From positions 3,678,684-3,742,683 of the forward strand of contig NZ_CP026004.1 of NCBI RefSeq assembly GCF_003086895.1: a stretch of DNA of 64,000 bases, in the 5' to 3' direction. The stretch's first letter is position 1. Every line of letters begins with the position of its first letter. The stretch comes from Stenotrophomonas sp. ESTM1D_MKCIP4_1. GTDB lineage: Bacteria; Pseudomonadota; Gammaproteobacteria; Xanthomonadales; Xanthomonadaceae. The position numbers and the translations under genes were made by a program. Positions 2,761-60,784 of the stretch are shown here, piece after piece. Under the pieces are notes generated by a model. It was not told where the DNA came from. It worked only from the letters and a program-made list of their open reading frames with translations, and searched no databases.

Positions 2761-3581
2761 CCACGATGCTGCCGCCCGACGTTGCCCTGCTGGCCGAGAT
2801 GGCGAGCCTGGCCGGCTGTGATCGCGCCGAAGGCTATGCCTGCATCACCGCGCGCCGCGAACATGGCGCCAGTTCGGTGGAGATACCGCAGCCCCAGTTC
2901 GTGATCCTGCTGGAAGGCAGCAAGCAGGTGCGTACCGCGCACCAGTCCCTCACCGCCCATGCGGGCGACATGCTGCTGTTCACCCAGCGCTGCCGCATCG
3001 ATGTGGTCAATACACCCGATGCAGCCACGGGCCGCTACCTCAGCGCCATCGTGCCGCTGTGCGCGGAAGTACTGGCTGCGGCGCGCACGCTCTGGAGCGA
3101 AGCATTGCCTTCGGCTGGCGCGGCGATCGCCCAGCCCCGCCTGGTCAACCACGGCACGGTGCTGCGACGCTGGCGCCAGGCACTTCAGGATGGGCATTAC
3201 AGCGAAGCGCGGCTGGCGCTGGCCGAGCTGGTACTGGCCTGGTGCCGGCAGGGCCACGGCAACCTGCTGCTGCCACAGGTGCCCAGCCTGGGCGAACAGA
3301 TCCGCGACCGCATTGCGGCCGAGCCGGCACGTGATTGGCAGTCGCGCGATGTGGAAGACCACTTCGCACTGAGCGGCGCGACCCTGCGTCGGCGCCTGGC
3401 GGCCGAGCGCACCAGCCTGCGGCAGTTGCTGACCGAGGCACGGCTGGCGCACGGCATGATGCTGCTGTACACGACCGAGCTGCCGCTGAAGACCGTGGCT
3501 GCACGCGCGGGCTATCGATCGGCGGCGAGTTTCAGCAAGCGCTTCGCCGAGCAGTACGGGCTGTCCCCGGCAGACATCTAA
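2757..3581 (+). CDS. AraC-family transcriptional regulator
   Basis: A 274-aa one-component regulator. The N-terminal ~150 residues should be the cupin-like sensing domain (QPQFVILLEGSKQV, then AHAGDMLLF). The last ~90 residues form the double helix-turn-helix, ending in AGYRSAASFSKRFAEQYG, a typical second AraC helix pair. The ATG chosen overlaps the VIT gene stop by 4 nt (ATGA), which indicates translational coupling; the frame stays open further upstream inside the transporter gene. It may control the transporter or a gene elsewhere; no operator was recognised. It is followed at once by the repeat-rich gap at 3582-4281. Confidence 0.85.
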   Translation: MTTMLPPDVALLAEMASLAGCDRAEGYACITARREHGASSVEIPQPQFVILLEGSKQVRTAHQSLTAHAGDMLLFTQRCRIDVVNTPDAATGRYLSAIVPLCAEVLAAARTLWSEALPSAGAAIAQPRLVNHGTVLRRWRQALQDGHYSEARLALAELVLAWCRQGHGNLLLPQVPSLGEQIRDRIAAEPARDWQSRDVEDHFALSGATLRRRLAAERTSLRQLLTEARLAHGMMLLYTTELPLKTVAARAGYRSAASFSKRFAEQYGLSPADI

Positions 3582-3592
3582 GGGTGGGGGTC

Positions 3593-3771
3593 GGCAGGGC
3601 TTGCAGCCCTGCACCTGCTGCAATCAACGTCAAAATCAAAAGCCTGCATTCCGTGGGATGGCGGGGCACTGTGGGTTTGCGGGGACGCCGTAAATACGTC
3701 CATGTAGGCTTGGTCGCCGCATCCATGCGGCTCACACCCCGCAAACCCACAGTGCCCCGCCTTCGACAGTT
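3593..3771 (+). repeat. long structured palindrome, copy A (covarying three-helix element)
   Basis: A composite element of about 180 bp. It begins with a short hairpin (GCAGGGC/GCCCTGC), then an A-rich link. A perfect 24-bp outer stem follows (3661-3684 with 3737-3760). The 52-nt loop contains two inner hairpins, both closing on a CC dinucleotide: TACGT-CC-ATGTA at 3695-3706 and GCCGCAT-CC-ATGCGGC at 3716-3731. It ends in CTTCGACAGTT. Copies B (3987-4177, inverted) and C (60596-60784) share the plan, but their stem sequences differ in a compensated way. No ORF fits it. Confidence 0.85.
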
Positions 3772-3790
3772 GGCCGGCGGCTGATGGTGG

Positions 3791-3949
3791 GTGCCGACCG
3801 TTGGTCGGCACATCTGTCGGATATCGGATAAATCATCCACGCACGGCGTGGATCTACTGCGACAGGCGGTTGGTAGGTGTCGACCTTGGTCGACACGATT
3901 TTTCTGTCAGATATCGACATCCGACCCCGTGCCGACCAACGGTCGGCAC
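3791..3949. repeat. cluster of four SMAG-like palindromes between two long elements
   Basis: Four short palindromes lie between copies A and B of the long element: GTGCCGACC-GTT-GGTCGGCAC (3791-3811), ATCCACGC-ACG-GCGTGGAT followed by CTAC (3835-3857), GTAG-GTGTCGACC-TT-GGTCGACAC (3873-3896) and GTGCCGACC-AAC-GGTCGGCAC (3929-3949). The same variants recur at 60832-60913. The rest of the 700-bp gene-free gap 3582-4281 is made of the two long palindromes and shows no coding signal. Confidence 0.8.
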
Positions 3950-3986
3950 CCACCAAAGCAGAACGCCGTTCCGACAGATCGCGGGG

Positions 3987-4177
3987 AACTGTCGAAGGCG
4001 GGGTGGGTCCGGTTGAGGGGGTGTGAGCGGCATGGATGCCGCGACCAAGCCTACATGGACGTATTTACGGCGTCCCCCTCAACCGGACCCACCCCGCCAT
4101 CCCTCAGGAAACCAGCCTTTGACGTTGCTTCGGCCGTTGCCGTTGCATTGAGCAGGTGCAGGGCTGCAAGCCCTGCC
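3987..4177 (-). repeat. long structured palindrome, copy B (inverted orientation)
   Basis: This is the same element as copy A, on the other strand. The 24-bp outer arms (3997-4020 with 4075-4098) pair perfectly but have a different sequence from copy A: the core is GGGTCCGGTTGAGGGG rather than CACTGTGGGTTTGCGGGG. The inner hairpin reads GCGGCAT/ATGCCGC instead of GCCGCAT/ATGCGGC. The flank carries CAACGG-type hexamer repeats and ends in the GCAGGGC/GCCCTGC hairpin. Copies A and B face each other, about 215 bp apart. Confidence 0.85.
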
Positions 4178-4281
4178 GCCCCCCCCCTGAGCATTCCACG
4201 CAGTGGTTTGAGCGCATCGCGCGCGCCCCACCCGGCACGCTGCACAGCGACGGAACAACCCGCCTTACCGAGCCCCACCTC

Positions 4282-5256
4282 ATGACCCTGCGTCACCTGC
4301 CCCTGCGCGGCGCCCTGCTGTTGGCCCTGTCTTCCCTGCCGCTGGCCGCCATGGCCGAAGCCACCTCCCCTGCCCCCACCCAACAGGTTCCGGGCGTCTA
4401 CCACCAGCGCATCGGCAGCCTGCAGGTCACCGCCCTGTTCGACGGCGTGGTCGCGTTGGGCCGCCAGCAGGTGGTCGATGTTTCCCCCGCCCTGGTCACC
4501 CGCCTGCTGGATGGCCGCTACGTGCCCGAGGACAAGAAGGGCCTGCAGACCGCGGTCAACGCCTTCCTGGTCCGCCAGGGCAAGCACCTGACCCTGGTCG
4601 ACACCGGCACCGCGCAATGCTTCGGCCCCGGCCTGGGCCAGGTGCTGGGCAACCTGCGTGCCGCCGGGGTGGACCCGGCCGGGATCGACGACGTCCTGCT
4701 CACCCACGCCCACCCGGACCATCTGTGCGGCGTGCTGGATGCCCAGGGCCAACCGGCCTATCCCAACGCCACGGTGTGGCTGTCCAAGGCCGATGCCGAT
4801 TACTGGCTTGACCCGGCCAGCGAGGCCGGCGCGCCGGAAGGCGTCCGCTTCGCCTTCCCCTTGGCACGCAATGCGGTGGCGCCGTACCAGGCCCACGGCA
4901 GGCTGCGCACGTTCCAGCCGGGGGATGCGCTGCCCGGTGGCGCGGTCGCCATGGATACCCACGGCCATACCCCCGGCCATGTCTCCTACCGGTTCGACAG
5001 CCAGGGGGAGTCGTTGCTGGTCTGGGGCGATGTGCTGCATTTCCACGCGGTGCAGTTCGCACATCCGGAGGCGGCATTCGAGGCCGATGCAGACCGCCCA
5101 GCGGCCATCGCCAGCCGTCGCGGCTTGCTGCAGCAGGCGTCGGCCAAGGGATGGTGGGTGGCCGGCGCGCACCTGCCGTTCCCCGGGCTGGGTCATGTGC
5201 GCCGCGAGGGCGAGGCCTATGCGTGGGTACCGGCGGAGTATTCGCCGTTGAAATGA
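4282..5256 (+). CDS. periplasmic MBL-fold metallo-hydrolase
   Basis: A 324-aa exported protein. The first ~25 residues are a signal peptide (RGALLLALSSLPLAAMA, cleavage expected just before EATS). The metallo-beta-lactamase zinc motif HxHxDH is present as THAHPDHLCG at residues 141-150, with the later ligands in DTHGHTPGH and a C-terminal GAHLPFPG. This matches hydrolytic MBL enzymes near the lactonase and quinone-oxidoreductase-associated groups; the substrate cannot be told. The ATG was chosen because it begins the signal peptide; the frame is open further upstream through the repeat region. It stands alone, with repeats on both sides. Confidence 0.85.
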   Translation: MTLRHLPLRGALLLALSSLPLAAMAEATSPAPTQQVPGVYHQRIGSLQVTALFDGVVALGRQQVVDVSPALVTRLLDGRYVPEDKKGLQTAVNAFLVRQGKHLTLVDTGTAQCFGPGLGQVLGNLRAAGVDPAGIDDVLLTHAHPDHLCGVLDAQGQPAYPNATVWLSKADADYWLDPASEAGAPEGVRFAFPLARNAVAPYQAHGRLRTFQPGDALPGGAVAMDTHGHTPGHVSYRFDSQGESLLVWGDVLHFHAVQFAHPEAAFEADADRPAAIASRRGLLQQASAKGWWVAGAHLPFPGLGHVRREGEAYAWVPAEYSPLK

Positions 5257-34719: not shown

Positions 34720-34872
34720 TCACGACAATGCACCTGCTCGCCCATGGTGGGCGGTGCGTGGGGATCCTCGCGATCCGTCGGCTTTTTTCGCTTTGATTTT
34801 GACCGGCACGCCAACCCGCACCGCCCGCCACCTTGCATCCCGCAGGTGGCCTTGCCCTGTGAGGTTGTCACC

Positions 34873-60595: not shown

Positions 60596-60784
60596 GGCAG
60601 GGCTGCGTCCTGCACCTGCTCAATGCAACGGCAACGGCAACGGCAACGTCAAAAGCCTGCATTCCGTGGGATGGCGGGGCGGGTCCGGTTGAGGGGAACG
60701 CCGTAAACCCATCCATGGGGGCTTGGTCGCGGCATCCATGCCGCTCACACCCCCTCAACCGGACCCACCCCGCCTTCGACAGTT
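60596..60784 (+). repeat. long structured palindrome, copy C
   Basis: This has the same plan as copies A and B. The 24-bp outer arms (60673-60696 with 60751-60774) pair with one mismatch and share copy B's sequence type. Inner hairpins are CCCAT-CC-ATGGG (60708-60719, a compensated change from TACGT/ATGTA) and GCGGCAT-CC-ATGCCGC (60729-60744). The flank has four GCAACG-type hexamers in a row. It begins 3 bp after the oxidoreductase stop. Confidence 0.85.

Follow-up and report, generated by a model that had tools for sequence, protein, structure and literature searches.

A palindromic element of the YPAL/RU-2 type in Stenotrophomonas and other Gammaproteobacteria, with a covarying three-way-junction core and two loops resembling Csr/Rsm sites

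The window, i.e., the whole analysed stretch of 64,000 nucleotides from Stenotrophomonas sp. ESTM1D_MKCIP4_1, contains three copies (A, B and C) of a dispersed element, at the coordinates previously assigned to them in a preliminary description, as a sequence check confirmed. Copy A starts 12 nt past the stop of an AraC-like ORF (stop at 3581) and faces copy B, whereas C is a lone copy; both A and C start shortly behind stop codons. The loop pattern of the element was matched three times in the window, with 0.00 matches expected from 100 dinucleotide shuffles. In the following, the strand on which the element was originally described is termed the described strand and its opposite the complement. 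The features are as follows:

~3583..4187, no strand: facing block with A (+) and B (-) as its two inverted ends, seen as inverted repeats I1, I2 and I4
3791-3811 and 3929-3949, within the facing block: SMAG-like GTGCCGACC palindromes between A and B
3593..3659, plus strand: 5' extension of A, comprising a GCAGGGCTTGCAGCCCTGC hairpin, a CAACGTCAAAA-type tract and TTCCGTGGGAT, common to other copies of the same genome
3660..3761, plus strand: whole fold of element A, P1 arms 3660-3684 and 3737-3761, 25/25 Watson-Crick pairs, z -7.33
3685..3711, plus strand: conserved core of A with P2 (GCC/GGC), bulge and HP1 (3695-3706); core pattern present in 37/369 Gammaproteobacteria
3716..3731, plus strand: hairpin P3 of A, loop AUGGAU on the complement, identified by covariation and loop letters
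3997..4098, minus strand: whole fold of element B, P1 arms 4074-4098 and 3997-4021, 25/25 Watson-Crick pairs, z -7.60
4047..4073, minus strand: conserved core of B, HP1 4052-4063, identified by loop-pattern match and pairing
4027..4042, minus strand: hairpin P3 of B, identified by loop-pattern match and pairing
60596..60672, plus strand: 5' extension of C, beginning 2-3 nt past a called gene's end (60593)
60673..60774, plus strand: whole fold of element C, P1 arms 60673-60697 and 60750-60774, 23/25 Watson-Crick pairs, z -6.51
60698..60724, plus strand: conserved core of C, HP1 60708-60719, identified by loop-pattern match and pairing
60729..60744, plus strand: hairpin P3 of C, identified by loop-pattern match and pairing

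Each copy represents a 102-nt structure with a 25-bp outer stem (P1) and two inner hairpins, arranged as P1 arm, core with P2, 5-nt bulge and HP1, hairpin P3 and second P1 arm. Pairing of the outer arms, as proposed in the preliminary description, was observed in every copy, the two unpaired P1 positions of C being A.C mismatches. The z values listed above refer to RNA folding, for which 0/200 shuffles were equally good; folds calculated with DNA parameters were also far from shuffled sequences (z -5.0 to -8.0). Variation of the inner hairpins between copies was likewise found, but a split of A from B and C in all helices, as initially assumed, does not hold: A and B share the HP1 stem TACG..TGTA, whereas C has CCCA..TGGG. 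Moreover, the inner loops had been misread as a CC dinucleotide; with the base pairs that are maintained across families, the loops comprise six bases of the form NTCCNT. Overlooked features are the short GCY/RGC helix and, within its 5-nt bulge, a pair that covaries. The helix GCCG/UGGU suggested by RNAalifold was discarded in favour of GCY/RGC, with double changes in two GCY/RGC pairs vs none. Rfam searches at the gathering score yielded no match at A, B or C. Elsewhere in the window (34740-34835), a C4 antisense RNA (RF01695), a phage immunity RNA, was recognized with 50.5 bits vs a gathering score of 45.

Within the 4.48-Mb genome that contains the window, 39 places were found at no more than three mismatches from the loop pattern, and the broader core pattern ACGCYGYRARYNCNTCCNTGNRRGCTY was matched exactly 75 times. 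The surroundings of the 58 best model hits and the window together provided 76 elements, which do not include every copy; one copy carrying an insertion (L258) escaped the pattern. According to a home-made codon-usage gene caller, for which gene starts are rough, 75/76 elements lie outside called genes (two overlap a gene end) and one lies inside. Of these 76, 56 form 28 facing (+,-) pairs, in which the structures are 144-453 nt apart in 27 cases and ~862 nt apart, around a gene, in one; the remaining 20 elements occur alone or in one same-orientation run of three. Over all loci sampled, with places repeated, neighbour orientations were (+,-) 123, (-,+) 9, (-,-) 8 and (+,+) 7. Facing pairs at two loci (L302 and L272) flank non-transposase genes, as named by eye. 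In an alignment of 30 copies from this genome (29 distinct), 98.0% of cells are paired and 20/38 pairs feature double-sided changes; the covariation score amounts to 0.431 vs 0.118 for shuffled alignments (0/500 as high), with slid controls at no more than 0.060. The proposed selection on a folded form is supported by covariation within this genome.

A model built from these 30 copies matched 12/60 genomes of the family (own genome included), at 1 to at least 58 places each, 58 places having been scored per genome under stricter filters. Within the class, the core pattern was present in 37 of 369 sampled Gammaproteobacteria (own genome included), with patchy distribution and up to 428 occurrences, and the reversed pattern gave 0 matches among the rows listed for these 369 genomes. 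Exact cores numbered 428 in genome G306, 64 in a Stenotrophomonas other than our own and none in a third; in the phylum sample, counts across this genus were 0, 64, 75 and 96. In the phylum sample, 16/299 genomes carry the core, all of them Gammaproteobacteria (16/114 by hand count), and it was absent from 185/185 Pseudomonadota outside this class (hand count of rows). Hence, recurrence beyond the own genome was obtained in family, class and phylum searches alike. A scan of named records provided at least 120 stretches, all listed ones being titled Stenotrophomonas or [Pseudomonas] hibiscicola. Plasmids and phages gave no match with copy A as query; with the core as query, partial matches were detected in six plasmid records, two of which are the pDCA twins, and E. 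coli genomes showed no match at E 0.01.

Individual loci revealed further arrangements. One of them (L355, G655:C1:94000-96200) is a head-to-tail array of six elements with a period of ~227 bp. Some G306 copies (L286-L300) add a CGCCATGGATGGCG hairpin with an AUGGAU loop on the described strand. Furthermore, the sole exact core of two congeneric species (L203 and L204) is located at the same place, next to purH/purD-like genes (names by eye).

Judged by its sequence, the core of A, B and C is that of YPAL/RU-2, a Yersinia palindromic repeat: the reverse complement of core and P3 is present in RU-2 as given in PMC2759123, and folding of RU-2 yields identical loops for P3 and HP1. The elements share with YPAL/RU-2 the core sequence, the three-way junction, the long palindrome, the intergenic location and the many copies, the palindromic, multicopy and intergenic character having been found in the own genome as well; they differ in unrelated arms, and the present family is class-wide, with facing pairs in Stenotrophomonas. 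In the parts of the literature consulted, YPAL is described for Yersinia and Erwinia carotovora. It is reported to generate duplications of 3-26 bp, to target sites located at a dyad symmetry or next to one, to leave some sites empty while others are occupied, and perhaps to influence the stability of RNA (excerpts of PMC2229807). Copy numbers given for it range from 2 (Y. ruckeri) to 144 (Y. enterocolitica) in Yersinia, with 3 in E. coli (excerpt of PMC2847712), and it is listed as a structured family in an excerpt of PMC2267715.

Covariation was also evaluated class-wide in 33 elements, of which 30 represent one other genome each, two are from the window and one is from a plasmid. This set comprises 22/30 class-search loci (L181-L210), eight family genomes (one each), the two window copies and the left copy of pDCA; L188, L191, L197, L198, L201, L204, L205 and L207 were dropped due to short arms, odd loop length or repetition of a locus or genome. 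Double changes were observed in 18/21 pairs, HP1, P2 and P3 included, and 91.2% of cells are paired. The covariation score of 0.583 vs 0.176 for shuffled alignments (0/500 as high; slid controls no more than 0.145) extends the earlier three-copy observation to a wider set. Moreover, the pair within the P2 bulge covaries, with T-A in 106, C-G in 37 and others in 4 of 147 unique cores. The conserved core of ~52 nt looks like a folded, RNA-like three-way junction that has been kept from Yersinia to Stenotrophomonas, whereas the arms are not conserved.

Arms of different genomes are without any likeness to each other (by eye) and range from G+C-rich to A+T-rich. Nonetheless, they pair over 22-60 bp in 25/30 class-search loci, the arms of the other five being short or interrupted (2-13 bp), which is also the case for many G306 copies. 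In G306, the core occurs in repeats with at least two terminal sequences, TATACCC... and AATTCCCAATTTGAG..., and with a third arm type. Since arms are unrelated between genomes, it is tempting to assume that the core was inserted into the loop of host palindromes, which would now make up the P1 arms. No core-less version of the arms of A or B was seen at their intergenic site, and core-less relatives in G306 resemble deletions (among the matches listed). As outer arms move blockwise, the three window copies alone could not have shown covariation, which the wider sets do show; selection on folding thus stands, and the arm differences between A, B and C that had been put forward for it are weak evidence, reflecting wholesale replacement besides paired changes. 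Arm-to-arm copying or gene conversion between copies, keeping arms complementary without any functional fold, would be in line with arms swapped as blocks between species at one locus and with the rarity of G.U intermediates on the described strand. Such copying predicts neither the strand asymmetry of mismatches described below nor the class-wide covariation in HP1, P2 and P3, and is considered very improbable.

The orthologous region between the AraC and MBL-fold genes was readable from gene to gene in 22/30 loci (own included). Both elements are present in 15 of these, one in five and none, by pattern, in two; at position A, three arm types were distinguished by eye, with seven species each, plus one odd one. 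It follows that the positions are old and that arm sequences were replaced as blocks. Among more distant Stenotrophomonas, elements are missing in 11/12 loci, most of which have a short intergenic region, implying that the block was inserted after the AraC stop codon, or was lost in these more distant species. The empty sites in relatives that the preliminary description called for, and the empty and filled sites known of YPAL, accordingly have their counterpart at A/B. Comparison of flanks among sampled loci showed mosaics, replacements and deletions and no clean empty sites (among the matches listed). Mobility in the own genome is suggested by the patchy distribution and this one insertion polymorphism.

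Other palindromic repeats were seen, by eye, inserted exactly in hairpin loops of A/B, namely in HP1 (L216, L224, L226) and P3 (L229), with remnants at L221, L227 and L240, as if the hairpin tips were targets for such repeats. At another intergenic site, one Stenotrophomonas holds an element and a second one GGGGTCGGATCC-type palindromes (L177 vs L089), as if repeats replaced one another in place.

The elements might originate from ISAs1-family insertion sequences, either as their termini or as derivative MITEs. Plasmid pDCA carries an ISAs1-family IS (L301, ~2937-4508) whose 16-bp inverted repeats (CAGGGCAATCGCACTA) enclose a facing pair of elements and which shows a 10-bp duplication (by eye). 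Moreover, ISAs1 genes occur in 8/37 core bearers vs 41/332 others. However, 30 further ISAs1 loci, several of them truncated at contig ends, yielded no element, the pDCA IS is present in only two plasmid records that are identical across the IS, and neither the own genome nor G331 has an ISAs1 gene. A derivation from ISAs1 is nearly refuted by these data and has hardly any probability left; capture of an element pair by the pDCA IS is likelier.

Mismatches in P1 were analyzed for information on the strand under selection. In 339 unique elements, non-Watson-Crick pairs on the described strand are A.C in 312, G.U in 53 and other in 167 cases, corresponding to C.A 197 and A.C 115 vs G.T 40 and T.G 13; most pairs of P1 consist of a G in the 5' arm and a C in the 3' arm. 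Ratios of A.C to G.U are 161:24 in Stenotrophomonas, 44:16 in G306 and 107:13 elsewhere. As the set contains near-duplicates, the comparison was repeated with genomes as units and all Stenotrophomonas pooled into a single group, giving more A.C in 27, more G.U in three and ties in six (sign test 8e-6; two of the genomes, G114 and G250, share one locus). An A.C mismatch on one strand is a G.U pair on the opposite one, and the A.C excess therefore suggests that selection acts on pairing of the complement in single-stranded form. P3 lacks this bias (A.C 10, G.U 13 in all, described strand). The functional single strand, as far as the base pairs tell, thus seems to be the complement; the preliminary description was right about a folded single-stranded form, for which covariation speaks, and had chosen the opposite strand for it. 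A functional RNA read from the described strand was rejected on the P1 mismatches, though HP1 folds better there. Transcription-linked mutation of the complement would yield the same P1 bias and would also imply transcription of this strand.

It is possible that the selected strand is single-stranded DNA. The fold would then be a transposition intermediate whose loops are read by a hairpin-recognising transposase or relaxase, with a coincidental likeness to Csr sites. Strand asymmetry would arise equally for one DNA strand, the G306 core sits in repeats with different termini, and YPAL is reported to be mobile with 3-26 bp duplications (excerpt of PMC2229807). On the other hand, folding as DNA is much less stable (about -42 to -47 vs -80 to -83 kcal/mol for RNA), no candidate enzyme was found, and free and fixed loop letters match the Csr rule in two hairpins; a DNA intermediate is accordingly rated as rather unlikely, at about one half of the weight given to the RNA reading.

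This loop likeness is seen on the complement, where both inner loops read C-ANGGAX-G. The HP1 loop is A N G G A X with fixed letters in 33/33 class-wide elements and, being part of the search pattern, is not independent of it. P3 lay outside this pattern; its loop has A in 31, G in 33, G in 31 and A in 31 of 33 elements, with N and X free, and A.GGA was found in 326/339 unique elements, a constancy that is largely due to common descent within Stenotrophomonas. In both hairpins the free letters coincide with the free letters of the Csr/Rsm rule, and the stems below the loops vary freely. The two GGA triplets are ~20 nt apart, a spacing within range for one CsrA dimer. High-affinity Csr/Rsm sites are described as an ANGGAX hexaloop straight on a stem, C-G-closed in RsmZ (excerpt of PMC4005645), which is the sequence found here, and in CLIP data on E. 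coli CsrA the peaks show an enrichment of AuGGAug within short stem-loops (excerpt of PMC5694010).

In line with a CsrA reading, the own genome encodes one CsrA. Other results qualify this reading. CsrA was found in 33/37 core bearers vs 280/332 others (matched by hand), which is no clear enrichment; bearers without a match are G253 (98% complete, four cores), G400 (85%), G067 (75%) and G158 (67%). In 150 of the 339 elements sampled for openness, HP1 was less open at the complement's GGA (mean 0.63) than at the UCC of the described strand (0.85), with openness of P3 on either strand (0.93 and 1.00). When the complement is folded to minimum energy, HP1 appears in C and is absent from A and B. 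Conservation is as strong in other unpaired segments of the core as in the loops; together with the covarying P2 bulge pair, this implies that two Csr sites do not account for the entire core. No paper treating CsrA and YPAL together was found in the open-literature collection searched, outside of which most subscription papers lie, and searches on CsrA, repeats and sponges gave nothing relevant among the matches listed.

As an alternative without CsrA, the element might mainly act as a YPAL-like 3'-UTR hairpin guarding the upstream mRNA against decay. The gene upstream is co-oriented in 45/76 own-genome elements and then often ends 75-110 nt before P1, and a role in RNA stability was proposed for YPAL (excerpt of PMC2229807). 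Against this, orientation is opposite in 30/76 (one unclear), 34 G306 elements show no preferred gene orientation, and stability alone needs no conserved loops, bulge or junction. The variable gene orientation in the own genome also counts against the CsrA reading. This protective role as the main function is judged improbable, somewhat more so than the DNA intermediate.

Ysr224 (Rfam RF02770), the nearest RNA family, has the same core letters; its best score was 33.6 bits (E 2.3e-4, in L036), below the gathering score of 70, with 27.1 bits at B and 20.9 bits at A, and the stem alone gave some miRNA families equally high scores. It is modelled on the described strand, opposite to the complement favoured here. 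CsrB/RsmZ-type sponge RNAs likewise possess multiple hairpins whose A(N)GGAX loops have a closing C-G pair (excerpt of PMC4005645); the element differs by two sites per copy, dispersed mobile copies and no known promoter or terminator. The SMAG/GTAG (REP) repeats are also dispersed Stenotrophomonas palindromes, SMAG-like units being located between A and B, but they are 20-40 bp long, carry a GTAG tag and have another sequence. The TwoAYGGAY RNA motif, known here from a table row in PMC2864571, is alike by name alone, as its two AYGGAY loops are fitted by AUGGAU and AUGGAC; six loci gave no Rfam match to it at E <=5, with inclusion of the model in the searched set unconfirmed.

Based on these results, the element is interpreted, with about even odds of being right, as a mobile, non-autonomous YPAL/RU-2-type palindrome that carries an RNA three-way junction and likely a double Csr/Rsm site on the complement. 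In this interpretation, the core would fold into a junction of the outer stem P1, the bulged hairpin P2/HP1 and hairpin P3. The complement would be transcribed by read-through from neighbouring genes, and the RNA would display two C-ANGGAX-G hairpins, with GGAs ~20 nt apart, on the long P1 stem. Binding of CsrA/RsmA to both loops would be the likeliest action, each copy thus placing a ready-made double Csr/Rsm site in an intergenic region, where it could act as a leader or 3'-UTR site or as one unit of a dispersed sponge; P1 may additionally shield the transcript. More tentatively, and with less than an even chance, the family could constitute a class-wide mobile Csr/Rsm sponge, i.e., a selfish palindrome with two putative high-affinity CsrA/RsmA hairpins, replaceable arms and host-specific termini.

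As a YPAL-type mobile palindrome, the element is new in breadth, structure and proposed partner. YPAL has been known, in the excerpts cited above, as mobile hairpins possibly affecting mRNA stability; here, its core is class-wide, selected on one strand and equipped twice with a loop of a protein-binding type. One RNA core on dozens of unrelated arms furthermore represents a natural experiment. If CsrA/RsmA binds, existing CLIP and RNA-seq data would be directly re-readable, and mobile repeats would rewire or buffer a main post-transcriptional regulator. If the family acts as a mobile sponge, dozens to hundreds of dispersed copies would titrate, or locally recruit, the global regulator of their host.
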